A stretch of 50,337 nt of DNA from Anaerolineae bacterium (GTDB lineage Bacteria > Chloroflexota > Anaerolineae > Aggregatilineales > Phototrophicaceae). Within the stretch, counting starts at the first letter, position 1; every line of letters starts with the position of its first letter. The position numbers and the translations under genes were made by a program. The stretch covers positions 1 to 50,337 of the forward strand of contig JABWBO010000020.1 in NCBI GenBank assembly GCA_013360465.1. The letters run 5' to 3'. The notes beneath the pieces were generated by a model. That model was not told where the DNA came from. It did not search any database and saw only the letters and a list, made by a program, of their open reading frames with translations. This document shows, in pieces, positions 13,695-47,128 of this stretch.

Positions 13695-15032
13695 TTAGGC
13701 GCGGTCCAGCGCTTCCTGCATCAGTTCTGCAGCTTCGTTCAGCGCCTGGTCGGCGGGCTTTATGCCGTTCAGCGCTTCCTGGAGGCTGGCATCCATGAGG
13801 CTGAGCAGTTCCTGGGTGACCGTCGTGCGCGGGTCCTGAATGCCGTAGGCGCTGAAGGTCTGACCGAGGAGGATGTTGGACGGAAATTCCTCAGGGTTGA
13901 GGGCAGCCTGCGCCGAAAGACGCGCCGGGACCTGACCGGAGGACGCCCAGGTCACCTGGTTCTCGCTGACCCACTGGATCAGCTTGAGCGCGGCGTCCAG
14001 CTTCTCGCCTTCCAGACCGGCGGGGAGCATGAAGGTGTGCGTGCCGAACCAGGTCGCCTGGTTGGGACCCCACTGCCAGTTGGGCCACGCCATGCTGTCG
14101 ATGTCCGACTGCAGGAGCGACTGATTGCGATACCACGTGCCGGTGGGCAGCACGGCAACCGTGCCCGCGCCGAAGCCCTGCCACGTGTCGAAACCAGCCG
14201 ACGGCGGGGAGACATGATAGGTGTAGACCAGATCGACCGCCTGCTGAAGCGCCGTGATGCCCGCCTCAGAGTTGATCGTGATGGTCGAGCCGTCTTCGCT
14301 CAGGAAGGAGCCGCCGTTCTGATAGAGGGCAGCCAGGAAGTTGACGTTGGGCCACTCACCAACCGTGTAACCCCACTGCACGACGTTGGCGGGGTCGAAA
14401 TCGGGCGACAGGGCGTTATTGCCATTGGCGTCGAGCGTGAGCTTCTGGAACAGTTCGACCCAGCCTTCATAGGTGGTCGGCGCGGTGGCGGGATCGGTGG
14501 AAAGTCCAGCCGCCTCGAACATGGTCTTGTTGATCCACAGACCACGCCCGTGATTGTCCAGCGGGATGCCGTAGTTCACGCCATCATACATCATGCCACT
14601 CATGGTGGTCGCCGAGACGTCGTCGTCCGGCAGCCAGCCGCCGCCAGAGGTATATTGGTCACCCATGTCGCGCAGCACGCCGAAGCTGGCGTACTGGGGA
14701 ACTTCCGAAGCGTGCAGCATGAACACATCGGGGTATGTGCCCGCCACGAAGGCGGTCTGGAGCTTCTGATACAGCGTGTTCCAGGCGATGATTTCGACGG
14801 TGACGGAAACATCGGGGTTTTCGGCGGCGAACTGCGTCAGCATCTCGTTGAGGGTGACGCCATCCGAACCGGTGAGACCATTCCAGAAGGAAATATGCGT
14901 GCCGCCGGAGCCGATTTCAGCCACGTTGGGGGTGGCGGTGGGCGCTGCATCCTGCGCCTGAACGCTGAGGACCGAAAAGGAGAGCAGAAGGATGGCAAGG
15001 AGTGCCAGGGCAGAGAAACTACGTTTGGACAT
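13695..15032 (-). CDS. Extracellular sugar-binding protein of ABC transporter
   Basis: A 445-residue family 1 solute-binding protein. The signal peptide is MSKRSFSALALLAILLLSFS plus VLSVQAQ, followed by a short Thr/Pro linker and the mature domain starting THISFWNGLTGSDGVTLNEM. The hinge segment YGIPLDNHGRGLWINKTMFE is typical of CUT1 binding proteins. No lipobox Cys is present, so it is either anchored by an uncleaved signal or free. The start is ATG 15032 with a GGAG site; an upstream in-frame ATG at 15233 would place a non-conserved stretch before the signal peptide. It is transcribed from the operator-containing promoter at 15134-15191. Confidence 0.92.
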   Translation of the reverse strand: MSKRSFSALALLAILLLSFSVLSVQAQDAAPTATPNVAEIGSGGTHISFWNGLTGSDGVTLNEMLTQFAAENPDVSVTVEIIAWNTLYQKLQTAFVAGTYPDVFMLHASEVPQYASFGVLRDMGDQYTSGGGWLPDDDVSATTMSGMMYDGVNYGIPLDNHGRGLWINKTMFEAAGLSTDPATAPTTYEGWVELFQKLTLDANGNNALSPDFDPANVVQWGYTVGEWPNVNFLAALYQNGGSFLSEDGSTITINSEAGITALQQAVDLVYTYHVSPPSAGFDTWQGFGAGTVAVLPTGTWYRNQSLLQSDIDSMAWPNWQWGPNQATWFGTHTFMLPAGLEGEKLDAALKLIQWVSENQVTWASSGQVPARLSAQAALNPEEFPSNILLGQTFSAYGIQDPRTTVTQELLSLMDASLQEALNGIKPADQALNEAAELMQEALDRA

Positions 15033-15133
15033 TTTTAAGCTCCTGTATCGTAAATCAATTGCCGGGACCCGCTGTGAAACTCCGGTCTGGATTTGGGATT
15101 CGCCTAACCTCCAATGTGCTGTCATAATGTAAC

Positions 15134-15155
15134 CGAATGCATGTATTCGTATGCA
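15134..15155 (-). promoter_or_regulatory. Candidate LacI-family operator at the importer promoter
   Basis: CGAATGCATGTATTCG (15134-15149) is a near-perfect palindrome centred on CATG, extended by TATGCA. Read on the minus strand, the 22-base site matches the one before the GH2 gene at 19 of 22 positions. It begins 8 bases after the -10 box, so a bound repressor would block initiation. Confidence 0.7.
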
Positions 15156-15162
15156 CCATCCG

Positions 15163-15191
15163 ATTAGAACATAGTCCGAAAGGGCTGTCAA
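15163..15191 (-). promoter_or_regulatory. Sigma70-type promoter of the sugar importer operon
   Basis: On the minus strand, TTGACA (15186-15191) and TCTAAT (15163-15168) are spaced by exactly 17 bases. The operator lies immediately downstream. The leader to the binding-protein ATG is about 125 bases. Confidence 0.75.
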
Positions 15192-15335
15192 GCACTTCGC
15201 GAAATCTTTCGGGATAGGGGGGGAAAGGTCCAAAAGTCACCATACGAGCTACCCGGGTCAACAGGTAGAATTTTGTATCCTTTTTCATAGCAACCTATCC
15301 ACACCCTCCCCTAACGGAGATGTGCAGAGAGTGAT

Positions 15336-16379
15336 ATGGCGATGGCGAAGAAACCATCAAGCAGGCTAAAAATGCCGACGATGTACGATGTCGCCAAACT
15401 GGCGGGCGTCTCTCAGCCGACGGTTTCGCGCGTCCTCAACGACAACGACACTTCGGTGCAGATCAGCGACGAGACTCGGCAGCGTGTCCTGGCGGCGGTG
15501 GCAGAACTCGGCTACCGCCCGAACATCCTGGCGCGCAGTCTGCGCACCCAGAAGACGCAAACCCTCGCCCTGATGATCGCCGATCTCTCCAACGCCTTTT
15601 ACCACCGCATCGCCCGGGCGGTGCAGGACGTGGCGCATCTTCAGGGCTACGAGGTACTCATCTTCAATACCGAACATCTTTATGAAAACGAACTGCACTT
15701 TTGTGAGGTGGTGTCGCGCCGCCCCGTCGATGGGGTGATCATGGCGCCCTATCACCTGACGGTAGAAGACATCGATAAGTATTTCATCCCGACGCGCACG
15801 CCGGTCGCCATCCTGGGGCAGCATTTATATCACCCCGAAGTCGATGCGGTCTTCCTGGATGACGAGCGCGCCTCCTATGAGGCGATCCGCTGGATGATCG
15901 GCGAACGCGGCTACAAGGATTTTGGGTTTCTGGGCGTCCCCGACTCGCTGCGCCCCGGCGCGCGGCGCTTTCGCGGATTCCAGCGCGCTCTGGGCGAGTT
16001 CGACCTGTCGTTTGATCCGCGACACCTGGTCATCAGCGACTTCTCGCTGGAAGGCGGCGCAGAAGCGGCGCAGGAATATCTGCGGCGGGGAAACCTGCCG
16101 CGCGCCATCTATGCCATCAACGATCTGATGGCGATCGGGCTGATCCTGAGCCTTCAGGAAGGCGGCGCGCGGGTCCCCGACGACGTGGCGGTGCTGGGCT
16201 TCGACGATATCCCTGAAGCGCGCATCGTCCGCCCCATGCTCACCACCATCGCCCAGTATCCGCGCGAGCTGGGGCGGAATCTAGCGATGGCGGTCTTCGA
16301 GCGGCTGAATCACCCGGAAGGGTACTCGCGCCGGGCGATTGAGTGCGAGTTCCGGTTGATCGTGCGCGACTCCACCTGA
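15336..16379 (+). CDS. LacI-family transcriptional regulator
   Basis: A 347-residue repressor. The N-terminal helix-turn-helix is PTMYDVAKLAGVSQPTVSRV (residues about 14-33) with the hinge helix YRPNILARSLRTQKT. The rest is a periplasmic-binding-protein-like sensor domain with conserved blocks LALMIADLSNAFYHRIARAV, VDGVIMAPYH and VAVLGFDDIPEARIVRPMLT. It lies between the sugar importer operon and the GH2 gene, and each of their promoters carries the same palindrome. It therefore very probably represses both until a pentose- or uronate-type sugar binds; the inducer is not known. The start is ATG 15336, with an alternative at 15342. Confidence 0.93.
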   Translation: MAMAKKPSSRLKMPTMYDVAKLAGVSQPTVSRVLNDNDTSVQISDETRQRVLAAVAELGYRPNILARSLRTQKTQTLALMIADLSNAFYHRIARAVQDVAHLQGYEVLIFNTEHLYENELHFCEVVSRRPVDGVIMAPYHLTVEDIDKYFIPTRTPVAILGQHLYHPEVDAVFLDDERASYEAIRWMIGERGYKDFGFLGVPDSLRPGARRFRGFQRALGEFDLSFDPRHLVISDFSLEGGAEAAQEYLRRGNLPRAIYAINDLMAIGLILSLQEGGARVPDDVAVLGFDDIPEARIVRPMLTTIAQYPRELGRNLAMAVFERLNHPEGYSRRAIECEFRLIVRDST

Positions 16380-33200: not shown

Positions 33201-34738
33201 AGGCTGTCTCCATTCAGGCTGATCAGCCGGTCCAGACCGCCGAAACCGCCTTGCAGCGCCGCGCTCGCCGGGTCGGTCAGCAGGCGCGCCAGATCGGGCA
33301 GGATGCCGAACAGCAGCACGAAACCGAGCAGGAGGATCAGCGGAATCTGCATTCGCCAGGGCAGAGGGCGGCGCGGCGCGCCAGCCTCCGCCGGAGCATC
33401 GGCGAAGAGGAGCATCACCACCGGCAGATAGTAGGCGAGCGACAGCAGGGTGTTGAGCGCGGCGAAGAGGGTCAGCGCCCCCGCCGCCGGACTGCCGCTC
33501 GCCATGCCCGCCTGGAAGACCTGCCATTTGGAGATGAAGCCCGCCAGCGGCGGCAGCCCGGCGAGGCTGAGGATCGCCAGGGTCAGCGCCAGAGCAGCGA
33601 GCGGGCTGCTGCGCCCCAAACCGCGCAGCTGACGGAAGGGCATCGGGCGGTCGGCGTCCATGCCCAGGCTGTACAAGCCGCCGCCGATGGTCAGGAACGC
33701 CAGCGCTTTCATCACGCTGTGATTGAGCAGGTGGAACAACCCTGCCTGCGCCGCCGCCGGCTCGCGGGTGTAGAGGGCGACGCCTAACGCCAGCAGCATG
33801 AAGCCGATGTGGCTGATGCTGGAATAGGCGAGCAGCCGCCGCAGCTCTTTCTGGCGCAGCGCCAACAGGTTGCCCGCCACGATGTTCAGCGCGCCGAAGC
33901 CCAGCAGCAGACTGCCCCAGACCTCCGCCGCGCCGCCCAGGGGAGCCAGCGCCCGCAGCATGGCGATCAGCCCGCTGACGGTGATCGCGCCGGAGAACAG
34001 CGCGGCGGTCCCGATCGGCGCGTGGGTGTAAACATCGGGCAGCCAGGTGTGCAGCGGGACCAGCGCGCATTTGACGCCAAAGCCCAGGATGAACAGCGCC
34101 CCCGCCGTCAGCAGCGCCGGCGAACCCGCCTCATTGAGGACGGCGTCCAGGCGCAGACTGCCGGCGCTGCCCAGCACCAGCGCGATACCCATCAGCGCCA
34201 GCAGCGAGCCGACAACGTTCTGCACCAGATACTTGATGGCGGCGTCGAGCGCGGCGGGACGGTCATAGGCAAAGGCGACCAGCATCAGCGAGGCGATCAT
34301 CATCGCCTCGAACCACAGCCACAGGTTGAACAGGTCGGCGGCGCACGCCATGCCGATCATCGCGCCGCCCGTCGCCAGGATCATGGCGAAGTACTTCTCC
34401 GCGCCCGCTCTGCCGGAAACGCCTACGCCGGAAAAAATGAGCGTCAGGGTGCTGACCCCCAGGACCAGCGCCGCCGTGAACAGGCTCAGTCCGTCGATGC
34501 GCAGGTTCAGCGCCCCAACCTCGACGGTGAGCGCCGGGACTGGTGCTGCCGAGAGCGCCGCCAGATCGCGCGCGGCGGCGGCGAAGACTGCCCACATCCC
34601 CGCCAGGACGGCGAGGCTGAGCGCCCATGAGATCTGCCAGCGCGCCGCCCGGCGCGGTTCCAGTGGCAGACGCCCCGCCAGGTAGATCAGCGGCGATGAA
34701 GCCAGCGGCAGCGCAATCAGCCAGGCGACAGGGTTCAT
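33182..34738 (-). CDS. Antiporter-like membrane subunit, NuoN type
   Basis: A 518-residue membrane protein with about 14 helices. It has the paired charged residues of Mrp/Nuo antiporter-type pumps: Glu144 in LWLWFEAMMIAS and Lys223 in LGFGVKCALVPLHTWLPDVY. The second half includes RRLLAYSSISHIGFMLLALG and FHLLNHSVMKALAFLTIGGG, also conserved. It should translocate H+ or Na+ when the hydrogenase turns over. It overlaps the NuoL-like gene by 4 bases. Confidence 0.92.
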   Translation of the reverse strand: MNPVAWLIALPLASSPLIYLAGRLPLEPRRAARWQISWALSLAVLAGMWAVFAAAARDLAALSAAPVPALTVEVGALNLRIDGLSLFTAALVLGVSTLTLIFSGVGVSGRAGAEKYFAMILATGGAMIGMACAADLFNLWLWFEAMMIASLMLVAFAYDRPAALDAAIKYLVQNVVGSLLALMGIALVLGSAGSLRLDAVLNEAGSPALLTAGALFILGFGVKCALVPLHTWLPDVYTHAPIGTAALFSGAITVSGLIAMLRALAPLGGAAEVWGSLLLGFGALNIVAGNLLALRQKELRRLLAYSSISHIGFMLLALGVALYTREPAAAQAGLFHLLNHSVMKALAFLTIGGGLYSLGMDADRPMPFRQLRGLGRSSPLAALALTLAILSLAGLPPLAGFISKWQVFQAGMASGSPAAGALTLFAALNTLLSLAYYLPVVMLLFADAPAEAGAPRRPLPWRMQIPLILLLGFVLLFGILPDLARLLTDPASAALQGGFGGLDRLISLNGDSLWRLFF

Positions 34739-36750
34739 CGCAGCGCTCCTATCGTGGCGACGATGGCGAAGACGACGATCAAGCCGCCGATGATGCCGAC
34801 GACGTTCCAGTTCAACTGCCCGGTCTGGGTGCGTTCGGAAGCGCCCGCCAGCCCCTGCACGAAGCTGCCGGTCGAATGCTCCAGTCCCTCGAACAGGGTT
34901 TCGTCGGCGTCGGCGAGCGCTTCGGTCAGGCGGTTATAGCCGGCATAAGTCAGGCGGTCGAAGACCAGCTCGGTCTCTTCAGCGGCTTTCAGCGCCAGTC
35001 CGGTGCGCTTGAAGGCGCAGATGAAGGTGCGCCGGTACAACTTGTCGATCCACCAGCCCTGGCGCATCACCTGCATCAGGCGTTCGGCGCGGGCTTCCAG
35101 CGGGTCGCGCCAGGCGGCGTTCGCTGCGCGCCGCACCGCCCGCCCGTAGATCAGGATCGCCAAGCCCATCCCACCCGCCGCCAGCGCCAGCGACGCGATG
35201 GCGACGCTCAAATGGAACGACTCCTCTTCTGCGCCGAGCCAGCCGGTCAGCGCGCCGCGTCCCGGCAGGTTGAGCGCGCCGCCGACGAGGCACAGCCCCG
35301 CCAGCAGCAGCAGCGGGCGCGTCATGATCGGCGGCGATTCCACCGCTGTTTTTGCCATCGGCGTGCGCGGCGCACCGAAGAAGACCATGACCCACTGCCG
35401 CCCGACATAGAACGCCGTCAGCCCGGCGGCGGCGGCGAGCGCCAGAAATGCCGCCGGGTTATGGTCCGCCGCCCAGCCCAGGATGGCATCCTTGGAGAAG
35501 AACCCCGCCAGCGGCGCAGCCCCGGCGAGGGTCAGCGCGCCAAGCGTATACGTCCAGAAGGTGAGCGGCATCCGCTTTCGCAGCCCGCCCATCTGCCGCA
35601 TATCCTGCGGAAACGGCTCGCCGCCGCGCCCCGCGTGGTCTGCCGCGTGGTGGGCGGCATGTTCCAGGGCGTGGACCACCGACCCGGCGCTGAGGAAGAG
35701 CAGCGCCTTGAAGCAGGCGTGGGTGATCAGATGAAACAGCGCGGCTGTGTACGCCCCCATGCCGACCGCCGCCATCATGAAGCCGAGCTGGCTGATCGTC
35801 GAATATGCCAGGGTGCGCTTGATGTCGCGCTGAGCGACGGCGGCGCTCGCCCCTAACAGCGCCGTGAGCGCGCCAATCGCCACGATCAGCGTCCCCGTGA
35901 CCGGCGCGAGCGCGAACAGCGCCTCGGAGCGGAGGATCAGAAAGACGCCGGCGGTGACCATCGTCGCGGCGTGGATCAGCGCCGAGACCGGCGTCGGTCC
36001 CGCCATCGCCTCCGGCAGCCAGACGAACAGGGGGATCTGCGCGCTCTTGCCCAGCGCCCCCGCCAGCAGACAGATCGTGACGGCAACCAGGAGCGGATCG
36101 CCGGCGGGCAAAAGCGACGCCCCGGCGAACACGGCGTCGAACTGAAGCGAGTCGAAATGCCAGAACAGCAGCCCGAAGCCGATCAGCAGTCCGGCGTCGC
36201 CGATGCGGTTGACGATGAAGGCTTTGCGCCCCGCCGTGCTGTTCTTCACGCCCTGCCCGTGCGGTTTGTCGAACCAGAAGCCGATCAGCAGGTACGAGCA
36301 GACGCCGACGCCTTCCCAACCGACGAACAGCACCAGATAGTTGTCGGCACTGACCAGCAGCAGCATCGCCGCCAGGAACAGGTTCAGATAGACGAAAAAG
36401 CGGGCATAGCGCGAGTCGCCGCGCATGTAGCCGACCGCATAGACGTGGATCAGCGTCCCGACGCCAGTGATCATGACCATCATCGCCGCCGACAGGGCAT
36501 CAAGGCGCAGCGCCCAGGGGACCTGCAGAGCGCCGACGGCGATCCAGTCGAACAGGTGGACGTGAACGACGCCGCCCGACGCCGCACCGACCATCCCCGC
36601 CGCCCACAACGCAGCGAGAAAGGCGGAGCCTGCCGCCGCGCCGGCGATCAGCCCCGGTGTTGGCTCGCGCAGACGGTGCGCCAGGAAGAGATTCGCCAGC
36701 ATGCCCAGCAGCGGCAGCAGGATGACGAGGATGACGGGGTGGACTGGCAT
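34735..36750 (-). CDS. Antiporter-like membrane subunit, NuoL type
   Basis: A 671-residue membrane protein. Glu146 in FVGWEGVGVCSYLLIGFW and Lys235 in AGALGKSAQIPLFVWLPEAM are the key ion-pump residues. The C-terminal part beyond about residue 500 is long and ends in a helix (GIIGGLIVVFAIVATIGALR), consistent with the lateral arm of NuoL that clasps the other pump modules. It is the largest pump of this complex and would sit at the distal end of the membrane arm. It lies 1 base after the NuoK-like gene. Confidence 0.93.
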   Translation of the reverse strand: MPVHPVILVILLPLLGMLANLFLAHRLREPTPGLIAGAAAGSAFLAALWAAGMVGAASGGVVHVHLFDWIAVGALQVPWALRLDALSAAMMVMITGVGTLIHVYAVGYMRGDSRYARFFVYLNLFLAAMLLLVSADNYLVLFVGWEGVGVCSYLLIGFWFDKPHGQGVKNSTAGRKAFIVNRIGDAGLLIGFGLLFWHFDSLQFDAVFAGASLLPAGDPLLVAVTICLLAGALGKSAQIPLFVWLPEAMAGPTPVSALIHAATMVTAGVFLILRSEALFALAPVTGTLIVAIGALTALLGASAAVAQRDIKRTLAYSTISQLGFMMAAVGMGAYTAALFHLITHACFKALLFLSAGSVVHALEHAAHHAADHAGRGGEPFPQDMRQMGGLRKRMPLTFWTYTLGALTLAGAAPLAGFFSKDAILGWAADHNPAAFLALAAAAGLTAFYVGRQWVMVFFGAPRTPMAKTAVESPPIMTRPLLLLAGLCLVGGALNLPGRGALTGWLGAEEESFHLSVAIASLALAAGGMGLAILIYGRAVRRAANAAWRDPLEARAERLMQVMRQGWWIDKLYRRTFICAFKRTGLALKAAEETELVFDRLTYAGYNRLTEALADADETLFEGLEHSTGSFVQGLAGASERTQTGQLNWNVVGIIGGLIVVFAIVATIGALR

Positions 36751-36751
36751 C

Positions 36752-37090
36752 TCATCCTCCGTTCTCCGCTTCCGGCGGGGTGTGAAACTTCATCGACAGC
36801 GTGCGCAGGTCGAGCGAACCGTGACAGCGCTGCATCTGCACCGCCAGCGCCAGCCCAATAACGGCGACCAGCGTATCGGCGACGATCACGCTGGCAGCCA
36901 TGCTCTGCGCGATGGCGATCTCGCCGCTGATGCTGCCGGCGACGACGACCGCCAACACCGCCGCCTTGCCGATGATCTGAAGCGAGAGGATCACCTTGAT
37001 GAGGTTGCGCAGGGTCATCAGCCCGTACAGCCCGATGCCCAACAGTCCGAAAACGGCGGCAATGCCCGCCGCGTACATGTCAATGATCAT
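36752..37090 (-). CDS. Membrane subunit, NuoK/MrpC-like
   Basis: A 112-residue protein with three helices. The segment LRNLIKVILSLQIIGKAAVL matches helix 2 of NuoK, but the buried Glu of bacterial NuoK is Gln38 here. In helix 3 the motif is SVIVADTLVAVIGLALAVQM, with Asp72 near the position of the second Glu, closer to MrpC/MnhC. It therefore sits between NuoK and MrpC in character. It overlaps the NuoJ-like gene by 11 bases. Confidence 0.85.
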   Translation of the reverse strand: MIIDMYAAGIAAVFGLLGIGLYGLMTLRNLIKVILSLQIIGKAAVLAVVVAGSISGEIAIAQSMAASVIVADTLVAVIGLALAVQMQRCHGSLDLRTLSMKFHTPPEAENGG

Positions 37091-37568
37091 GGCGGATTCC
37101 CGGCGGTTCCGCGTCCGTCCGGCGAAGGATGTTCAGCACGCTGATGATGCCGGCGAAGATCAGCACGATCTGTACCAGCATGTCCAGGCTGCGGTCCTGC
37201 CAGAGGATTTGACTGAAGGTGATGGGGACCTTATCCTGCCCGGCGGTGTTGATGGGCAGCAGCGTCAGCCCCAACAGGACGAGGCACAGCAGCGCGAGTC
37301 CGCCGGCGGCGGTTCTGGGGATGATCGGGGTCGGCATGGACGAAGTGCGTCCCATGAGACTCATCGCGAAGACGAACAGCACCGGCACCAGCCCCGTGCC
37401 CACGCTGAATTCGATCACGGCGATCTCGTGCGCGCCCAACATGTAGAGCAGTGCGGCTGCCCCTGCGCTGGTGACCGCCAGCCATAAGGCGGCGGTCAGC
37501 AGCCATCTGACGCTGATCGAGAGCAAAGCGCTGAACAGCATCACCAGGACAGCGGCGACGGAGAGCAT
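37080..37568 (-). CDS. Membrane subunit, NuoJ-like, first gene of membrane hydrogenase operon
   Basis: A 162-residue protein with about five helices. The segment LLYMLGAHEIAVIEFSVGTG followed by LVPVLFVFAMSLMG is the NuoJ helix 3 region, which undergoes rotation in complex I. A hydrophilic loop and a final helix (MLVQIVLIFAGIISVLNILR) follow. It could also be described as MbhD/MrpB-like, but length and motif favour NuoJ. The start is ATG 37568 preceded by AAGGAGG. The candidate dyad operator lies 29 bases upstream. Confidence 0.8.
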   Translation of the reverse strand: MLSVAAVLVMLFSALLSISVRWLLTAALWLAVTSAGAAALLYMLGAHEIAVIEFSVGTGLVPVLFVFAMSLMGRTSSMPTPIIPRTAAGGLALLCLVLLGLTLLPINTAGQDKVPITFSQILWQDRSLDMLVQIVLIFAGIISVLNILRRTDAEPPGIRHDH

Positions 37569-37596
37569 AGGACCCTCCTTCCAACATCCTGTACTG

Positions 37597-37622
37597 GCGC
37601 AACATTACATCTAGTGTTGCGC
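37597..37622 (-). promoter_or_regulatory. 26-base dyad upstream of the membrane hydrogenase operon
   Basis: The perfect 8-base arms GCGCAACA (37597-37604) and TGTTGCGC (37615-37622) enclose a partly symmetric centre; 11 of 13 positions pair. It lies just before the ribosome-binding site of the ten-gene operon. It could be an operator or a leader hairpin. It does not match FNR, CRP or Rex consensus sites that I know. Confidence 0.5.
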
Positions 37623-37759
37623 ATCGCATGAGCGCCCGCCAGTGTCGGATGTCACGCTCCAAGGGGATGTTTAGGCACGCCTAGAGTGCCGCCGCTTGAG
37701 CCTTCGCCCGCGCCTGCCCGCCTACCCCTAACTTTGGGGGGATACCTTTGAAGGCGCGC

Positions 37760-38374
37760 TCACCCACGCCGGCGCATGAACTGGATCATCAGCATCATCG
37801 CCAGCAGCAGGCGCATCTCCTCCTGCGGCGTCACGTCGCCAGCCTGCTCGATGCTGAACGCACCCTCAAAGAAGGCGGACTCTTTCTTCAGGCGCAGGAC
37901 CGGCGCGCTCAGATCTTCGGTGCTGCTGCCGCGATATGCCGTGTACGCCGGATGCAGCACGTAGCCGGAGAACATACCGATGATCGGCAGTTCGGAAAAG
38001 ACGGCGTCCAGCAGCTTAACCCAGGGATCATCCTCGCGGATATGATGCGTGACCGTGCCGTCGGGCGCGAAAATCTGGTAGGTCGCCCGCCAGATCGTCA
38101 TCAGCGTCTTGGGCTGCACATAGCCGAGCGGCTGACCGGTGGTGGAGTCGGTAAAATGGTATTTGGCGCGCACGTCGATCACCCGGTCGGCGTTGATGCG
38201 GAAGATCTCTCGCGATTTGCTCTCGTCGGTATAGATGCGCACGTCTTCGCGCAAATTCCACAGTTTTTGGTGTACGTAGGCGACCTGCTGTCCGGCGGCA
38301 TCGGTCACGATGATGCGCGGCGCGAGGGCGATCAGCTTAAAACGCAGGTTCAGGGGATAGTTGAAGTACGACAC
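37760..38374 (-). CDS. LURP-one-related / Tubby C-terminal-like protein
   Basis: A 204-residue protein. The pattern LNLRFKLIALAPRIIVTDAA, then GQQVAYVHQKLWNLREDVRI, REIFRINADRVIDVRAKYHF, GQPLGYVQPKTLMTIWRATY fits the LOR (DUF567) beta-barrel. The C-terminal segment (LLLAMMLMIQFMRRRG) is hydrophobic and may contact the membrane. Bacterial members have no settled function; a lipid- or membrane-associated scaffold role is often assumed. It uses GTG 38374 as start, with AGGAG upstream. It lies upstream of the hydrogenase operon on the same strand, about 190 bases away. Confidence 0.8.
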   Translation of the reverse strand: MSYFNYPLNLRFKLIALAPRIIVTDAAGQQVAYVHQKLWNLREDVRIYTDESKSREIFRINADRVIDVRAKYHFTDSTTGQPLGYVQPKTLMTIWRATYQIFAPDGTVTHHIREDDPWVKLLDAVFSELPIIGMFSGYVLHPAYTAYRGSSTEDLSAPVLRLKKESAFFEGAFSIEQAGDVTPQEEMRLLLAMMLMIQFMRRRG

Positions 38375-38601
38375 GGCGTTCCGGCTCCTTCTTCATGCTT
38401 ACTCATCGCTCACACGCTACAGTATAAGGCTGGTTTCCAGAATCGCGCTGGCGCATGACAGTGCGCGGGGCAATTCCGCCAGAAAGTGGGGTTTTTCGCC
38501 GCCGCGCCGGGTCAAAATGCGACAATTTCACGTCCTGCGTCGTATTTAACTGTATGGAACGGCTCTTTGGGCAATTGAGAACCATTTGAGGTGCTTGCAT
38601 C

Positions 38602-39063
38602 ATGTGGAGTCGTGAGCGTGGGCGCGGACCCGGACCGGGTCAGGCAGAGGTCGGACGGATGATGGTCATCGCGATGGTGATCGCCATCGTCGTTGGCACG
38701 ATAATCGCGCGGGGCGGCTTCAGCTTCGGCGGATGGTGGTGGTTTGTGGTCTTCATCCCAATCTTCATGGGCTGGAACCGGCGCAGCCGCCGCAGGGACG
38801 GGCGCGGCGATGCCATCGAGGGCGAAGCGTATGCATCTGGCAAACGCAAGAATGACGAGGGCAGCGACCTGGACGACGAAAAATCGAAGCGTACGGCGTT
38901 CGTGTTGGGCGACGACGGGGAATTGATCGAAGTGACGGCAGGCGGCGACCGCAGCCGGATCGCGGAGTCGTCCGAGGCGAGCGAAGCCGATCCGCCGCCG
39001 TTCGGCGCGGACCGCGCGCCGCTGCTGCGCCAGCAAGACGGGGATCGCCCGAATTACGTTTAG
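38602..39063 (+). CDS. Small membrane protein with charged cytoplasmic tail, function unknown
   Basis: A 153-residue protein. After a short basic N-terminus there are two closely spaced hydrophobic segments, MMVIAMVIAIVVGTIIA and WWWFVVFIPIFMGW, followed by an Arg-rich stretch (RRSRRRDGR) and a hydrophilic, Glu/Asp-rich tail. No family was recognised. The start is ATG 38602 with GAGGTG upstream. It lies 71 bases before the Ser/Thr kinase gene and could be cotranscribed, although the kinase has its own -10 box. Confidence 0.75.
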   Translation: MWSRERGRGPGPGQAEVGRMMVIAMVIAIVVGTIIARGGFSFGGWWWFVVFIPIFMGWNRRSRRRDGRGDAIEGEAYASGKRKNDEGSDLDDEKSKRTAFVLGDDGELIEVTAGGDRSRIAESSEASEADPPPFGADRAPLLRQQDGDRPNYV

Positions 39064-39086
39064 CGTCGCAGTCACCGCAACACGGG

Positions 39087-39092
39087 TATAAT
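39087..39092 (+). promoter_or_regulatory. Perfect -10 box before the Ser/Thr kinase gene
   Basis: TATAAT 42 bases before the kinase ATG. The region at -35 has no good match, so an activator or extended -10 may be needed. Confidence 0.4.
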
Positions 39093-39134
39093 GCAAAAGA
39101 CAGACCGCGGCAGCGTTCGAGAGGCAGGGGGGGC

Positions 39135-41129
39135 ATGACAGCGCTGGAAGGACAAACACTGGGACCCTATGAGGTACGCCACCAGATGGGGTCGGGCGGC
39201 ATGGCGACCGTCTACAAAGCCTATCACTCCCGCCTGGATCGGCACGTCGCCATCAAGGTGCTGCACGAGGCATTCCAGCAGGATGAGAATTTCCTGGCAC
39301 GGTTCGAGCGCGAAGCGCAGATCGTGGCGCGCCTTGAACACCCGAACATCGTGCCGATCTACGACTTCGCCGACATCAATGGGCGTCCTTACCTGGTGAT
39401 GAAGCACATCGAAGGGCAGACGCTCAAGTCGTTCCTGTTTCACAGCCCGCCGACGCTGGAGACCATCCGGCAGATTCTGCCGCCCATCGCCGACGCGCTC
39501 GACTATGCCCACCGCCAGGGCATCCTGCACCGCGACATCAAGCCGTCGAACATCATCATCGACGCCCAGGGCACGCCCTATCTGACCGATTTCGGGCTGG
39601 CGCGCATCGCCCAATTGGGCGAAAGCACGCTCAGCCAGGATGTGATCCTGGGTACGCCGCAGTACATCTCCCCGGAACAGGCGATGGGCAAGCGCGATCT
39701 GACGTCGGCGACCGATCTGTATTCGCTGGGCGTGGTGCTGTACGAGATGGTCGTCGGGCAGGTCCCCTTCAGCAGCGATACGCCCTTCGCCATCATTCAC
39801 GATCACATCTACCGCGCCCTGCCGACGCCGAGCGAGATCAACCCCGAGCTTCCGCCCGCCATCAACACGGTGCTGGAAAAGGCGCTCGCCAAGCGCCCGG
39901 ACGAGCGTTATGGGACGGCGACGGCGATGATCGCCGCCTTCCTGGAAGCGCTCGCCGCTTCAAACCTCTCGTCCCTCAACCCGAACCGCCGCGTCGTCGC
40001 CTCAGAGTCGCTGGCGCGCCTGCGCGAAAGCGATTCGCCGGAGGGGTTGAGCGACGAGGCTCCGACCACCCCGCTGCCCGCCGACCAGGCGCGTCAGCTG
40101 TCGCAGCAGGGGACGGGTCCTCAGCAGATTCTTCAGCCGCCCACGCCGCCGCAGCCGCCGCTCCCGCCCGGTCGCGAACGACCAAAACGCAAGGTCGAAG
40201 CCACCCTCGACCTGGGCGACATCAACTGGGGGCAGCTCGGGCAGCGCTTCGGCAGCGTCATCGAAGAGGTCGCCGAAAGCGTGGAAAAAGCCGTCGATCC
40301 CCAGCCGGTCGATGCGCTGCTCAGCCGCGACTCGGCATCGATTCGCCGGCGCGTCGAGGAAGAGTTCAAGAAGCGCCGCGAACTCATCAGCCACTTCATC
40401 GTGTTTGTAGTGGTGCAGATCATCCTGTGGGCGATCTGGGCTGCGGCGTCAGATTTCACCTTCGAGGTCGGCGCCGAAACCATCCGCTTCGGCAGTTTTC
40501 CCTGGCCCCTGATCATCTTCTTCGGCTGGGGATCGGGTCTGCTGGCGCACGCCGTCGAGACCTTTTACGACACCGGCAGACGTCTGCGCCGGCGCGCCGA
40601 AGCGGTGGAGCGCGAGCTGATTCGCAACTACGGCGAAAACTGGAGCGCCATCGCCGACAAGAAGGCGATCAAGGCGCTGCGCAAGCGGGTTGAAGCGCCC
40701 CATAAGAAGGTGTCGGAATTCTTCCAGCACGCCGGCGTCTACGTGATGATCAACCTGATGCTGTGGCTCATCTTCTTCCAGGCGAACGGCGACGGCATCC
40801 CCCTGCCGCAGGAGGTCTTCAACTTCATGCAGAACATGCCGTTCCCCTGGCCCCTGCTGGTCACTGCCCTTTGGGGCATCGGACTGGTGATCAACGGCTT
40901 CGAGGCGTTCTTCGCCGGCAGTCACGAGCGCGCCGTGCAGCGCGAGATCGCCCGCGAGGAATCGCGCCTGCTGGAGCGGGAATACGCCAAACCGAAGCGT
41001 TCTGCCGAGGCGCTGCTGGACGCGCCAACGACGGCGGAGGGCGTGCGCCTGACCGAAGACGGCGAGTTCACCGACAGCCTGATCGAGGAGATGGAGCGGG
41101 AAGACCGCCGGGGACACCGGCGGCGCTAG
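39135..41129 (+). CDS. PknB-like serine/threonine protein kinase with two 2TM domains
   Basis: A 664-residue protein. The kinase domain (about 10-275) is complete: glycine loop HQMGSGGMATVYKA, Lys41 in VAIKVL, catalytic loop ILHRDIKPSNIII (Asp134, Asn139), DFG (Asp152) and LGTPQYISPEQAMG. A Pro/Gln-rich linker (about 300-350) leads to two copies of a 2TM-type module: RRELISHFIVFVVVQIILWA to FPWPLIIFFGWGSGLLAHAV, and HKKVSEFFQHAGVYVMINLM to FPWPLLVTALWGIGLVINGF. No extracellular sensor (PASTA or similar) is present, so the input is probably membrane state or partner proteins. It is preceded by a G-rich ribosome-binding site. Confidence 0.93.
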   Translation: MTALEGQTLGPYEVRHQMGSGGMATVYKAYHSRLDRHVAIKVLHEAFQQDENFLARFEREAQIVARLEHPNIVPIYDFADINGRPYLVMKHIEGQTLKSFLFHSPPTLETIRQILPPIADALDYAHRQGILHRDIKPSNIIIDAQGTPYLTDFGLARIAQLGESTLSQDVILGTPQYISPEQAMGKRDLTSATDLYSLGVVLYEMVVGQVPFSSDTPFAIIHDHIYRALPTPSEINPELPPAINTVLEKALAKRPDERYGTATAMIAAFLEALAASNLSSLNPNRRVVASESLARLRESDSPEGLSDEAPTTPLPADQARQLSQQGTGPQQILQPPTPPQPPLPPGRERPKRKVEATLDLGDINWGQLGQRFGSVIEEVAESVEKAVDPQPVDALLSRDSASIRRRVEEEFKKRRELISHFIVFVVVQIILWAIWAAASDFTFEVGAETIRFGSFPWPLIIFFGWGSGLLAHAVETFYDTGRRLRRRAEAVERELIRNYGENWSAIADKKAIKALRKRVEAPHKKVSEFFQHAGVYVMINLMLWLIFFQANGDGIPLPQEVFNFMQNMPFPWPLLVTALWGIGLVINGFEAFFAGSHERAVQREIAREESRLLEREYAKPKRSAEALLDAPTTAEGVRLTEDGEFTDSLIEEMEREDRRGHRRR

Positions 41130-41215
41130 GGCTGGCGCACGCGGCGAACGATCATCGACAACGACAGCACGAGGTCACAGGGCAGAGCGCCGCGCTGACG
41201 CGCGGCGCCCTCCTT

Positions 41216-42997
41216 TCAGAACAGCCGTTTCTGCGAGTATGTTCCTTCAGGATACTCTGTCTCTTCCCGTGTCTCTGTCATGCCGCTTGTTCGCGCCGCC
41301 GCACAGACTTCTCCCCAACTGGTGAAGTAGTCGTCATAGTAGTGGATGGAATAATCGCCATGTTCGATCATTTCCTTGCGCGATGGAAGGTGTCCAATCA
41401 TCTGCGCAACGCGGCGCACCTCAAGCTGAAGCGTTTTCTTTGAGACCTTGTATTTTTGCTTTTTGAGTCGGGCGACCGGGCTGTTCTTCGTCGTCAGCAC
41501 ACGATCCGCTTTTCTGAAGGGGTCTATGCCCTCGTCGATTTCTGCGTGGCGTTCCGTCGCCATCTGGAAGTATCGCTCTTCTCGCTCGATTCCGATGTAT
41601 CTTCTACCCAGCTGATGCGCCGCGAGCGTTGTCGTCCCTGCGCCATTGAAACAATCCAGGACGATCTCACCGGGTCTCGTGAAGAGCGAGATGAGCCGAT
41701 ACATCAGCTGTGGCGGCAGCTGGCACGGGTGATCAACACGGCGGGAATTATGTTTCAATCGATGGACATCCCACCAGATGTCAGACAAGATACCGCGATC
41801 ATCCATGCCGATTCTGGCGCGCTTCGCCAGGCATTGTGATCTCAGACAATATCCTTCACCCAGCGGAGTCAGTGAGCGAAAAGATGATGAGCGTTGGAAG
41901 ATTTCGTCGTCTACAGATGCGCCAGTCAACCCTGGGAGGGGTCGAGGGATTCCCTTACTGAAACACAGGATTGTGTAGTGGGCAGGCATGATCATCCGTA
42001 CGGGAAATGAAAGGGCATCCCACACAATCCAGTTCTGATAGGTAAGGATAGTCCCCATGTGCAAAAAATGACGCACTGCCCAGAGGGGTATGTTTAGCAG
42101 GGCGAATGTCGCCCCTGGGCGAAGCACGCGCGCCACTTCACTGATCCACGCATCGCACCATGTGAAGTAGTCGGAAATCTTCAGATCATCCGCATATCCC
42201 AGGTAGTGCTTCTTCAAGTTGTAGGGAGGGTCCACAAACGCGAAGTCAATCGAATTGTCTGGGAGTGCCTTAAGCTCTGAAAGCACATCCCCGTGAAGCA
42301 AGCGGCTCTCAAGGTGCAGGGGGGCTGAGGTGTTCTCTACAAGCAGCTTGGACACGCTTCTTCGGCTGTGGAGCAGCCGCCGCAGGTCGCAGACGTGGAG
42401 TTCATGGTACTGCTCTATGCCGAACAAGTCCGCAAAACGCTCCAGAACCGGCGATAAATCCCCTTCTGGATTCACCGAAATATCCCGCCAGACATCGGAT
42501 ATGAGCGTGCCGTACGGGTGATACGTATGTTTTTTGCCGCCGTAATCTTTGGTCGTCTTTTGACATGCCGGACAGTAAGAATACTCAAGCCGTGTCTTGG
42601 TGTGATGAAGCTGTCCATCGTATTTCGTGTAGACCAGCGCACCCACATGCTGATGCTTCAGGGCGGCAGATCGTTCATTATCAATCAGGGGTTCTCGTTT
42701 CACAGCGATCCATAGATGAAAGCGGAGATGTGATTCGACAGCCTGATGAACGTGAACCAGATCGACGGCTTCGCCGAAAACGATCAGCGTTGCCTGATCG
42801 CCGAGTTGATCGGTGATGGACGAAATCATCGTGCCGACTCCATCCAGGGGGATCGACATTGCGTCCAGATGGGGCGTGGGCAAGCGCACGAAGTACACAT
42901 CATTGTACCTCGCGGCGCTCTGCACAAGCGCCTGTTGGGTCTCAGGAGAAGTGACTCTGATATCCAGACGGCGGCTTCCCTCGGAAAGGTGAACCAT
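41216..42997 (-). CDS. Solitary DNA methyltransferase (DPPY type, beta order) with extra N- and C-terminal domains
   Basis: A 593-residue protein. The catalytic motif IV is FVDPPYNLKK (256-265), before motif I LDCFNGAGTTTLAAHQLG (447-464), the order of beta-class amino-methyltransferases; DPPY suggests N6-adenine. Residues 1-200 look like a degenerate second methyltransferase copy (VYFVRLPTPHLDAMSIPLDG in the motif IV place) carrying a CPAC zinc-ribbon-like pair at 142-145. Residues about 523-573 (VRRVAQMIGHLPSRKEM, then YYDDYFTSWGEVCAAA) resemble the homing-endonuclease-associated repeat. No restriction endonuclease is adjacent. Base composition is visibly less GC-rich than its neighbours, suggesting transfer. 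The start is ATG 42997 with AGAGGCAGG. Confidence 0.85.
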   Translation of the reverse strand: MVHLSEGSRRLDIRVTSPETQQALVQSAARYNDVYFVRLPTPHLDAMSIPLDGVGTMISSITDQLGDQATLIVFGEAVDLVHVHQAVESHLRFHLWIAVKREPLIDNERSAALKHQHVGALVYTKYDGQLHHTKTRLEYSYCPACQKTTKDYGGKKHTYHPYGTLISDVWRDISVNPEGDLSPVLERFADLFGIEQYHELHVCDLRRLLHSRRSVSKLLVENTSAPLHLESRLLHGDVLSELKALPDNSIDFAFVDPPYNLKKHYLGYADDLKISDYFTWCDAWISEVARVLRPGATFALLNIPLWAVRHFLHMGTILTYQNWIVWDALSFPVRMIMPAHYTILCFSKGIPRPLPGLTGASVDDEIFQRSSSFRSLTPLGEGYCLRSQCLAKRARIGMDDRGILSDIWWDVHRLKHNSRRVDHPCQLPPQLMYRLISLFTRPGEIVLDCFNGAGTTTLAAHQLGRRYIGIEREERYFQMATERHAEIDEGIDPFRKADRVLTTKNSPVARLKKQKYKVSKKTLQLEVRRVAQMIGHLPSRKEMIEHGDYSIHYYDDYFTSWGEVCAAARTSGMTETREETEYPEGTYSQKRLF

Positions 42998-43049
42998 CTG
43001 CCTGCCTCTATCCGGTGGCGAAAGAGTCTTGGCGCGAAGAGTCGAAGCC

Positions 43050-43514
43050 TCACCCCGCCGATTCGACGTAATCGCGCCGGGCGCGCTCCGCCAGGTGGAA
43101 GAGCGGCGTCTCTTCCAGCGGCAGATCGTTGACCGCGTGCCAGTACGCCGCCATCAGCATGCCCAGGGCGTGATCGCCGCGCGGACCGCCGGGTTCGTCG
43201 CTGCACACAAGGATCTCCGCGCCGGGCAGCGCCGGCAGGTCGATCAGCGCCGTCACCCCCGCCGCATAGAGCGCCCAGCGCGGCAGCGGACGATGCAGCA
43301 GCGTCTCACGGCGGACAGCGCTGCGGATGGTGAAGCGCACCTGCCGCCCGGCATCGGCGTCGATCAGCTTGACGAATGCCGCCCCGTTGAAACGAACCGC
43401 CGCCCAGATGTCGCGCCCCGGCACGCACACCAGCAGGTCCGGCGCATCATGGGCGCACAGCGATTGATACTGCACCAGCAGCCGCACAGGCGGATCGTTG
43501 CGTTCTTCGGTCAT
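43050..43514 (-). CDS. Hypothetical protein, possible GHMP/galactokinase-like fragment
   Basis: A 154-residue protein. The run RWALYAAGVTALIDLPALPG followed by ILVCSDEPGGPRGDHALGML and LFHLAERARRDYV is reminiscent of the middle of galactokinase-type GHMP kinases (W-x-x-Y-x-x-GV, then the P-x-GxG phosphate loop region). The phosphate loop is not canonical, and both the N-terminal substrate-binding part and the C-terminal domain are absent. It may be a degenerate or divergent fold, and the likeness is weak. It ends 52 bases before the methyltransferase gene on the same strand, so an insertion there could have removed its 3' part. Confidence 0.55.
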   Translation of the reverse strand: MTEERNDPPVRLLVQYQSLCAHDAPDLLVCVPGRDIWAAVRFNGAAFVKLIDADAGRQVRFTIRSAVRRETLLHRPLPRWALYAAGVTALIDLPALPGAEILVCSDEPGGPRGDHALGMLMAAYWHAVNDLPLEETPLFHLAERARRDYVESAG

Positions 43515-43543
43515 TGCGCCTCAGCTTCCTCACGGACGCCTAC

Positions 43544-43564
43544 TGTAGCACAAATTCTGCTACA
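43544..43564. promoter_or_regulatory. Dyad TGTAGCA-N7-TGCTACA in divergent promoter region
   Basis: Perfect 7-base arms (43544-43550, 43558-43564). The right arm overlaps a -10-like TACAAT (43561-43566) reading toward the SH3b gene. It lies between the kinase-like fragment and the SH3b gene and could serve as an operator for both. Confidence 0.45.
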
Positions 43565-43603
43565 ATCGACACTACCGTTGACGCTGGTTGGCAAACCACC
43601 TGC

Positions 43604-45004
43604 ATGGGAACACCGAGTCACCCGCTGAATCCGCTGCATTTCACACTGCGCCGCGCCGTCGCGCTGCTGATATTCGCTGCCCTGGCGGGTGCGGCGCTGT
43701 CGCCGCTCCGGGCGCAGGACGGTCTGCCGCTGATGCCCGCCGAGCAGTGCGCCCCGGTGCTGACCCACCTGTGGACGACCGCCAGCAACGCCTGCGTGAA
43801 CAAACCCGCCGGCTACGCCTGCAACGGCGGCGCGCCGGCGGGGGTTGAACCCTCCGCCGCGCTCGGCGCTTCCTTCGCGCCCGTCGGAGCGCTGGTCGAG
43901 GCGTCCACCCTCGACGCCATCGACACCCAGCCGATCCAAGTCGAAAACGTCAGCGCCGGCATCGTCTGGCTGCGGCTTCAGGACGAGAGCAATGCGACCT
44001 TTCTGCTGATCGGCGACATCACCCTGTACGACGTGACGACGCCCGACTTCCCGCCCTGGACGCGCAGCCTGCTGGTCACCAATCCCGCGCCGCCTTCCTG
44101 CGCCGCCGCGCCGATCAGCGGGATGGTGCTGCAAACACCCTACGGTCAGCAGGCGAATCTGGTCATCAACGGCGCTTCGGTGGCGATCATCGGCACGGCG
44201 CTGGTGCGTACCACCGAGTCGGAGACGGTCTTCTCGATGATCTCCGGTCGCGCGACGGTCTTCAGCCAGGGGCAGCGCCAGTCCGCCCTGCCGGGACAGC
44301 AGATTCGCGTCAGCTACCCGCCGGGCAATTTCTCCTTCCCGATCAGTGCGCCCAGCCTGCCGGAGCTGATCGACCCGGTGCCGCTGCAAAACCTGCCCGT
44401 CGCCCTCTTCGACCGCCCGCTGCTGCTGCCGCAGCCCGGCTACCTGACCACCACAGGAACCGTCAATCTGCGGACTGCCCCCGATGTCTACGCGGCGCTG
44501 CTGCGCGAGCTGCCCGGCGGCGAAGTCCTCACCCTGCTCGGTGCCAACCCGGATCAGACGTGGTATCACGTGCAGCTCGACAGCGGCGAGACCGGCTGGG
44601 TCTTCGCCGAACTGCTGGTGCGCAACATCGGCGCGATCAGCGCGCTGTACACCGCCACCCCGCTGCCCCCGCAGCGCCTTGGCGAACTGGGGACGCGCGC
44701 CCGCGTCCGCGCCGCCGATGGAGCCAATCTGCGCAGCGGACCGGACCTCGGATTTAGGGCGATTGCCCGCGTGGGCAGCGGCACGCTGGTCGATCTCATG
44801 GCGCGCAGCCCCTACAGCCCGGACTGGCTGAAGGTCAATGTCGGCGGCACGGTGGGCTGGATGTCGCTGCTCACGCTCGACACCCAGGCGTTCCTGGAAG
44901 CCCTGCCCATCGACTGGAACGCCCCGCTGCCGCCCACGCCGACGCCGCTGCCGGGTTCGTTCGGCAATGCCTTCCCTGACCCGGAAGGAGAAACGGGAGA
45001 ATAG
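43604..45004 (+). CDS. Secreted protein with two SH3b domains
   Basis: A 466-residue exported protein. The signal peptide contains RRAVALLIFAALAGAALSPL with cleavage near RAQ. The N-terminal 270 residues are not recognised. Two bacterial SH3 domains follow: TTTGTVNLRTAPDVYAALLR to TGWVFAELLV (about 295-350), and ARVRAADGANLRSGPDLGFR to VGWMSLLTLD (about 375-430). The tail is Pro-rich (PLPPTPTPLPG). SH3b domains usually bind cell-surface polymers or peptides. The start is ATG 43604 just before the signal sequence; an upstream in-frame start at 43514 is rejected because it would bury the signal. Confidence 0.85.
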   Translation: MGTPSHPLNPLHFTLRRAVALLIFAALAGAALSPLRAQDGLPLMPAEQCAPVLTHLWTTASNACVNKPAGYACNGGAPAGVEPSAALGASFAPVGALVEASTLDAIDTQPIQVENVSAGIVWLRLQDESNATFLLIGDITLYDVTTPDFPPWTRSLLVTNPAPPSCAAAPISGMVLQTPYGQQANLVINGASVAIIGTALVRTTESETVFSMISGRATVFSQGQRQSALPGQQIRVSYPPGNFSFPISAPSLPELIDPVPLQNLPVALFDRPLLLPQPGYLTTTGTVNLRTAPDVYAALLRELPGGEVLTLLGANPDQTWYHVQLDSGETGWVFAELLVRNIGAISALYTATPLPPQRLGELGTRARVRAADGANLRSGPDLGFRAIARVGSGTLVDLMARSPYSPDWLKVNVGGTVGWMSLLTLDTQAFLEALPIDWNAPLPPTPTPLPGSFGNAFPDPEGETGE

Positions 45005-45138
45005 GCGTAGAGCGCCCCTCATCCTGTCCGACTCGATAAATATTTCGAATTCACGATTCGGATGTCACAAACCCTCGAAAAGCACTTACAATGAAGAGGT
45101 CATTGCATGATACGCGGCTCATATGTGCAACCTTATGC

Positions 45139-45171
45139 CTATTGACGAGCAATAGTTGTTCTTCATACGAT
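45139..45171 (+). promoter_or_regulatory. Promoter and overlapping dyad of the ArsR-type gene
   Basis: TTGACG (45142-45147) and TACGAT (45166-45171) with an 18-base spacer. The -35 lies inside the inverted repeat CTATTG-N5-CAATAG (45139-45155), a suitable place for autoregulation. Confidence 0.5.
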
Positions 45172-45205
45172 CACGTGAAACATACAGGTTTTAGGAAGAG
45201 TCAAG

Positions 45206-45593
45206 ATGCACGATTCAAATTCCGCCGGTGACAGCGGTCAGATGACTGACGTTAAGCGCAAGAAGAAATCTGAAGTCATGACTCTGGGGGATGCCCGCCT
45301 GATCGCACGCTATTTCCAGGCGCTCTCCGATCCCACCCGCGTGCGCATGATTCGCGCGCTTGCCGACCAGGAATGGAGCGTTTCCGACCTCACCGTCGCC
45401 CTGGGGATGGATCAGCCGGCGGTCTCGCATCAGCTCAAGTATCTGCGCGAGATGGAACTGGTGAAATGGACCAAGGTGGGGCGGCACGTCTACTACACGC
45501 TGGCGGACCCCCACCTGATCAAGATTCTGCTGTCCAGCATCGCCCGTTTCCAGATCGATGGCGCTGAGCCGCCTGTCTCGCCGGTTCGCAAAG

Positions 45594-45604
<11 letters not shown>
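45206..45604 (+). CDS. ArsR/SmtB-family transcriptional regulator
   Basis: A 132-residue winged-helix protein: FQALSDPTRVRMIRALADQE, recognition region VALGMDQPAVSHQLKYLREM, wing VKWTKVGRHVYYTLADPHLI. The metal-binding cysteines of ArsR-type helix 3 are absent (DLTVALGM replaces ELCVCDL). In the C-terminal helix Asp and His (ADPHLIKIL) of the SmtB alpha-5 site remain, but the second His is missing. It may therefore sense a non-metal signal or act without a ligand. The extended basic N-terminus is unusual. Its last 11 bases overlap the end of the convergent histidine kinase gene. Confidence 0.9.

Positions 45605-47128
<1,524 letters not shown>

Follow-up and report, generated by a model that had tools for sequence, protein, structure and literature searches.

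The window analyzed here, a stretch of DNA of 50,337 nucleotides, carries a solitary DNA methyltransferase gene whose product appeared, in an original prediction made from the sequence alone, to combine an active enzyme with a degenerate second copy and a repeat resembling those associated with homing endonucleases. This raises the question of how such a methyltransferase came to stand alone and of what its additional parts might contribute. The gene and the segments of its product are the following:

41216..42997, minus strand: orphan beta-class DNA methyltransferase gene, 593 codons plus stop, ATG start
42353..42997, minus strand: N-terminal half, residues 1-215, catalytically dead methyltransferase copy (profile match, hhalign and predicted fold)
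42875..42886, minus strand: RLPT (38-41), aligned with the catalytic DPPY by hhalign; coordinates computed from residue numbers
42563..42574, minus strand: CPAC knuckle (142-145) of the dead half, from alignment A2
41555..42250, minus strand: active methyltransferase domain, Pfam residues 250-481
42221..42232, minus strand: motif IV DPPY (256-259), invariant in 13/13 rows of A2
41831..41851, minus strand: YCLRSQC (383-389), Cys pair of the active half, aligned with CPAC
41630..41659, minus strand: LDCFNGAGTT (447-456), SAM binding, which we take to be motif I, located in the sequence
41294..41443, minus strand: HNH_repeat PF18780 (519-568), from Pfam, in 13/13 A2 members

The active beta-class motifs expected in the middle of the protein are indeed found there. 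The Pfam model N6_N4_Mtase matches residues 250-481 with an E-value of 3.8e-40 (138.6 bits against a cut-off of 26.7), and DPPY (256-259) precedes FNGAGTT (around residue 450). In the beta class the catalytic DPPY comes before the SAM motif FxGxG, and the central domain has the sequence features of a beta-class amino-methyltransferase (N6_N4_Mtase). The likeness of the C-terminal segment to the homing-endonuclease-associated repeat was likewise confirmed by a profile search, in which HNH_repeat PF18780 matched residues 519-568 (E 3.3e-10, 40.6 bits against a cut-off of 26); both this repeat (at E <= 0.001) and the methylase are present in all 13 A2 members. A Pfam listing that runs nominally to E 10, and whose filters drop most matches above about 0.1, gave no homing-endonuclease nuclease domain (HNH, LAGLIDADG or GIY-YIG), and the repeat at the C-terminus probably binds DNA. 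A CPAC zinc-ribbon pair had also been proposed for the N-terminal half, and this was not borne out: among the ten cysteines of the 593-residue protein (142, 145, 203, 281, 345, 384, 389, 425, 449 and 565) there is a single CxxC in this half, at C142 and C145 near its middle, so that no classical two-CxxC zinc ribbon is possible within it. H157, or C384 and C389 of the other half, are possible further metal ligands.

Three tests agree that the N-terminal half is a dead METHYLTRANSFERASE. Residues 1-225, searched alone, matched the type II methyltransferase model PADLOC PDLC03238 at 87-174 with an E-value of 1.3e-8. When the profiles of the two halves (11 rows for the N-half, 13 for the C-half) were aligned with each other, they ran collinearly through 174 columns (E 6.6e-7 for one comparison, probability 92), and hhalign paired DPPY with RLPT (38-41), YCLRSQC with YCPAC, and SDIWWD with SDVWRD. 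In RLPT both the Asp and the Tyr of DPPY are lost, and the N-half has no counterpart of the SAM loop, the alignment stopping before it. The third test is the predicted fold. For the whole protein the structure model is of poor quality (mean pLDDT 57.9), with unreliable contact between the halves, and its list of VIA matches spans residues 225-490 only; a separate model of the N-half was therefore made and used for the search. The resulting model (8 sequences, mean pLDDT 73.2, pTM 0.77) has beta-class enzymes as its top VIA matches, with a Z of 9.0 both for MboIIA 1g60 (152 aligned residues, 4.0 A) and for M.BceJIV 8urk (163 aligned, 6.1 A), while its best Foldseek match is CcrM 6pbd (E 6.0e-6). 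A Z of 9.0 for a predicted structure is a middling fold match, and the two sequence tests are independent of the Z values.

Could this half be no more than the decaying, functionless relic of a tandem duplication? The missing SAM motif and the replacement of DPPY by RLPT are what such a reading would draw on, and yet we give it very little credence, since the N-half is kept in 12/12 full-length copies, which come from four phyla and a phage. The three-part architecture occurs in Chloroflexota (L001, L002 and L003, at 83 %, 59 % and 57 %), in a cyanobacterium (L004), in Bacteroidales (L005) and in Latescibacterota (L006), and further in L051, L057, L064, L065 and L067. The core of the N-half also argues against decay: Y139, C142, C145, K147, T148, K150, D151, G153-K155, H157, S167 and D168 are near-invariant in the 13-row alignment A2, in which L007 lacks coverage of the 139-168 region, and C142 and C145 are both kept in all 12 rows that cover CPAC. 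L007 is cut by a contig end and L066 begins inside the N-half, so neither supports nor opposes its conservation; both are in A2 and in the Pfam count, and were left out of the 12 copies scored for nuclease status (see below). These two sequences (L007 2-2124 and L066 146-1489) form a more distant subgroup at 36-38 % identity with the same methyltransferase-HNH_repeat tail. L007 has a DpnII-like nuclease (2.7e-6) downstream, itself weakly BanI-like (0.0011), instead of a BanI-type nuclease upstream.

The selection acting on the gene was estimated against a sister genome of the same genus, G006, whose locus (L001, taken as G006's) lies at the same place. The methyltransferase dN/dS is 0.19 between the window and L001, a pair test that pools the time before and after nuclease loss, so that part of the constraint is that of the nuclease-bearing lineage. 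Across the CPAC/GGKKH core at residues 139-175, dN is 0 with a dS of 0.80 between the sister genomes. Derived changes number 25 on the window side and 24 on the L001 side, with 50 undecided, and no window-derived change hits a position at which 8 or more of the 9 other sequences are alike. On these sequence measures the orphan shows no excess of change, and its N-half is conserved, under purifying selection, and catalytically dead but functional. The description of this module as decayed therefore stands for catalysis, and "degenerate" does not stand for function. The methyltransferase dS of 0.48 (window 41219-42997 against L001 628-2406) is about two to five times the 0.09-0.26 of six neighboring genes, with synteny kept; because of this excess the sister alleles may not be simple orthologues, and the high dS may come from replacement of an allele, or from a weaker constraint on the codons of a gene of low GC content.

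The sister locus also bears on why the methyltransferase is solitary. In blastn, window 33246-43031 aligns with L001 594-10406 over 9,828 bp at 90.9 %, and the alignment breaks off within the final codons of the nuclease, at window 43031 / L001 594: L001 3-617, directly upstream of the methyltransferase and cut by the contig end, encodes 204 nuclease residues that match RE_BanI PF24447 with an E-value of 3.4e-87. A run of NADH dehydrogenase-like subunit genes at 34735-37568 (named by reading) is also kept in the sister locus. Around the breakpoint and the methyltransferase the window holds:

43008..43031, minus strand: remnant of the lost BanI-type nuclease gene, its last 7 codons plus stop, 22/24 bases identical to L001 594-617
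43050..43514, minus strand: gene now upstream of the breakpoint, 154 aa, with a sub-threshold OB-fold match only
39135..41129, plus strand: convergent protein-kinase gene, common to the sister locus at 96 %

The remnant reads QDSFATG* in the window (CAA...TAG) and QDSFDNG* in L001. Beyond it lie 18 bases and then the stop codon of the 154-residue gene, relatives of which are present in 12/15 same-genus genomes and absent from G006. No nuclease gene is adjacent to the methyltransferase in the window, as had been observed at the outset, and tblastn of 14 nucleases (E <= 1) gave elsewhere in the window seven weak, scattered matches (best 0.074), none of them convincing. The window's own genome has no match to the nuclease query P0002 at E <= 1 and none to PF24447 at E <= 1e-10. 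This genome is 97 % complete in 256 contigs, which leaves some room for a nuclease gene in the missing part of the assembly. We consider this hardly likely, given that in all 10 relatives with any nuclease it lies directly beside the methyltransferase, and that the window has a truncated remnant and another gene at that very place. The cognate nuclease that might have turned up nearby outside the window was thus not found in the genome itself, and is present at the same place in the sister genome.

The methyltransferase is therefore solitary because its nuclease partner was lost at this locus, by deletion or by rearrangement; with only a 24-base remnant and no PF24447 nuclease, what the window holds is an orphan that descends from a restriction-modification (RM) system, rather than such a system. 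At E <= 1e-60 the methyltransferase was found in 2/15 same-genus genomes, and the other 13 gave no match. The sister locus, the 24-base fossil and two or three separate losses together provide a before-and-after case of the passage from a restriction system to a lone methyltransferase.

That the loss was not confined to this locus emerges from the 12 full-length methyltransferases scored for nuclease status, the window included. An open, full-length BanI-type nuclease lies directly 5' in eight of these (L003, L005, L006, L051, L057, L064, L065 and L067); the nuclease is cut by the contig end in L001, has one in-frame stop in L004, and is absent from the window and from L002, whose genome has no PF24447 match at E <= 0.001. 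The RE_BanI E-values are 2.4e-142 for L003, 8.6e-108 for L006, 1.6e-100 for part of L004 and 3.4e-127 for L005, and the layout in the relatives has the methyltransferase directly 3' of the nuclease on the same strand, the two overlapping or at most 16 bases apart. The nuclease is gone or broken in 3/12, which takes 3 changes on the methyltransferase tree (the 5-95 % bootstrap range likewise gives 3). At least 2 of them are required by well-supported branches, and so nuclease loss has recurred.

The history of these genes is also linked to phages, which brings up the reading of the window gene as a phage-derived solitary methyltransferase, a shield of phage DNA against host restriction that a prophage left behind. 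One full-length relative, L067 1-8735, lies on a tailed-phage contig with genes for an HNH protein, terminase, portal, head protease and head protein beside it; the GC content is low, and the relatives are scattered over phyla. The original observation of lower GC than in the neighbors holds, the 1-kb windows that fall within 41001-43000 having 0.54-0.575 and the remaining ones of 37001-47000 having 0.59-0.69, although 0.56 recurs at 14501-16000. Several points nevertheless make this reading improbable. The methyltransferase of L067 has an open, full-length BanI-type nuclease beside it (recognized by tblastn at 48 %, not by Pfam), and this phage contig therefore carries a whole restriction system rather than a solitary shield; the nuclease remnant upstream in the window weighs against the gene having begun at this locus without a nuclease; and the neighboring genes read between 34735 and 48703, namely a kinase, NADH dehydrogenase subunits, an SH3-like protein, an ArsR-type regulator and two-component genes, are not phage genes. 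As L067 is a viral contig, what travels on phages is the nuclease-methyltransferase pair. A mobile, phage-linked history thus survives from the suggestion of a selfish or phage-derived enzyme, and a stand-alone selfish origin is not supported.

Searches of mobile elements were of mixed yield. A scan of viral contigs with the single methyltransferase protein found nothing; an alignment-based scan matched at least 600 stretches, and among the matches listed 463 were confirmed and 80 kept. L067 is the only full-length copy among these 80, again of the matches listed, the other 79 starting at residue 201 or later. Neither the 30 phage records nor the 42 plasmid records matched by the methyltransferase protein cover 80 % of the query. 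The nuclease P0002 matched nothing among phages and 28 records among plasmids. In L005 (1415-12160) the pair lies in an island with a resolvase-like recombinase that splits a comM-like gene, the two parts of which flank it (names by reading).

A second alternative holds that the orphan is a domesticated epigenetic regulator, kept to control host genes. Its intact frame, and the absence of surplus change in the window's copy since the nuclease was lost, would fit such a role. For regulatory orphans wide conservation is reported in the available text of PMC6471742, and the presence of the methyltransferase in only 2 of the 15 same-genus genomes falls short of the genus-wide conservation of a regulatory orphan like Dam or CcrM; moreover, the constraint measured between the sisters belongs in part to the nuclease-bearing lineage. 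We accordingly see this as an unlikely reading, if the least unlikely of the alternatives weighed here, and return to the loss of a nuclease from an RM system.

The nuclease family was then approached from the other side. A PF24447-first search, with the centers G501 and G502 previously known to carry the system, found 3/400 genomes in the phylum of G000, 12/373 in that of L004's genome and 3/267 in that of L005's genome. A methyltransferase lies directly 3' of the nuclease in 18/18 of these loci. The partner is the fused beta-class protein in six of the 18 (G417, G501, G599, G502, G902 and G1065) and a cytosine-5-like enzyme in the other 12 (G134, G178 and ten of the phylum of L004, one of them cut by a contig end). 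The two plasmid records examined, out of the 28, both have an annotated cytosine-5 partner. On the nuclease tree (14 rows) partner type requires 2 changes, 1 of them forced by well-supported branches, and 15-20 of 500 shuffles give as low a number. Unrelated cytosine-5 and fused beta-class methyltransferases appear interchangeable as guardians of PF24447 nucleases, and the exchange of one kind for the other next to a single nuclease family raises the question of which base provides the protection. In three genomes of the L004 phylum (L155, L157 and L158, also L169-L171), nucleases beside a cytosine-5-like partner are truncated or contain stops.

For the site itself, the available text of PMC10298124 gives the BanI site as G^GYRCC. 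If the site here is GGYRCC, adenine methylation cannot protect its GGCGCC form, and either N4-methylcytosine is made or the nuclease reads another site. Two pointers were considered and set aside. GGYRCC occurs 19 times in the window against 122.2 expected (observed/expected 0.16), but over the hexamers of window 1-50337 the median ratio is 0.42 for the 32 palindromes with an expected count of at least 8, against 0.99 for 1,932 non-palindromes. The depletion is not specific, because six-base palindromes in general are depleted in the window, and a site drawn from palindrome avoidance was rejected, GGYRCC not being singled out among them. DPPY was rejected as proof of the methylated base, as S/DPPY/F is counted as a hallmark of N4-cytosine enzymes in the part of PMC6712171 available. 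M.Acc65I, a type II beta enzyme that makes m6A in GGTACC (PMC5364224), is a lead only.

Taken as a whole, we hold it to be highly probable that the protein belongs, as modification enzyme, to a BanI-type type II RM system whose nuclease was lost in this lineage, the dead half serving as a subunit substitute and the HNH_repeat gripping DNA. The protein would act as a one-chain pseudo-dimer, with the dead half and the C-terminal repeat on DNA while the central half methylates one short site. In this arrangement the N-half, as a fused dead copy, would stand in for the other subunit of a dimeric methyltransferase and might help to bind or open the DNA, and the HNH_repeat may grip DNA in the manner of the C-terminal domain of CcrM. 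Order of loss matters in such systems: the available text of PMC6471742 has the nuclease lost first, since a nuclease left behind alone would cut the genome once it was no longer methylated. The orphan is most likely kept by methylating the old site, which would protect the cell when systems with that specificity arrive by phage, as the phage-borne pair could, or by plasmid; alternatively, it may persist because the nuclease loss is recent.

The wider proposition, namely that this is a bacterial single-chain pseudo-heterodimer, independent of METTL3-METTL14 and interchangeable with cytosine-5 enzymes, in which a dead but conserved copy supplies DNA recognition or strand separation, seems to us about evenly balanced. 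In the open-access literature we found no description of the fusion, nor of an HNH_repeat linked to a methyltransferase. As a compact natural fusion of an active and a dead methyltransferase, expressible as one gene, the protein could be used to test the role of dead partners such as METTL14.

Among known systems, the BanI-type type II systems are the natural point of reference, with a PF24447 nuclease directly 5' in relatives of the window methyltransferase. M.BanI is a C5 enzyme. The window locus differs in the loss of its nuclease and in having as partner an unrelated beta-class amino-methyltransferase with a dead copy. The catalytic half resembles MboIIA 1g60 (VIA Z 20.8, 189 aligned, 2.8 A) and CcrM 6pbd (Z 19.8, 195 aligned, 3.3 A), and can be likened to the beta-class set of CcrM, RsrI, MboIIA and M1.HpyAVI, an accessory C-terminal domain being common to CcrM and the window protein. 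CcrM works as an unequal dimer, and its C-terminal domain offers a precedent (in the available text of PMC6787082). However, its dimer consists of one gene product, whereas the window protein has two unequal halves fused, one of them dead, and carries an HNH_repeat where CcrM has its own C-terminal domain; against the CcrM family NF050803 it scores 95.4 bits, below the cut-off of 830.

In METTL3-METTL14 and MTA1-MTA9 an active methyltransferase is paired with an inactive partner, METTL14 being the inactive one. The window protein shares this arrangement of active and dead halves, but it is bacterial, a single chain, and has the dead half first. In VIA, METTL14 (chain B) is the best chain for the N-half in 31/31 METTL3-METTL14 rows, with a weak Z of about 7, and METTL3 (chain A) is the best chain for the C-half in 30/30 such rows; Foldseek gives mixed chains for the N-half, 14 METTL14 (B) and 10 METTL3 (A) in 24 rows. 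Pfam listed no MT-A70 profile up to E 10, and the likeness is one of fold and arrangement only.

As far as the available text of PMC12898733 describes it, MhoVII of Mycoplasma hominis likewise has two methyltransferases, M1 and M2, fused within one type II system, although both of its halves are active, belong to different classes and methylate complementary motifs, unlike those of the window protein. Phage orphan methylases with intein or homing-endonuclease insertions, as presented in the accessible part of PMC9957025, also link methylases to homing-type elements and to phages; those elements are insertions, whereas here the repeat is terminal, lacks a nuclease domain and is kept in 13/13 rows. 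A comparable history is that of the orphans from decayed systems treated in the available text of PMC6471742, in which the nuclease is lost, the methyltransferase kept, and a degraded nuclease adjoins it; what sets the present case apart from those is that the sister locus reveals the lost part, and that the protein has an unusual architecture.
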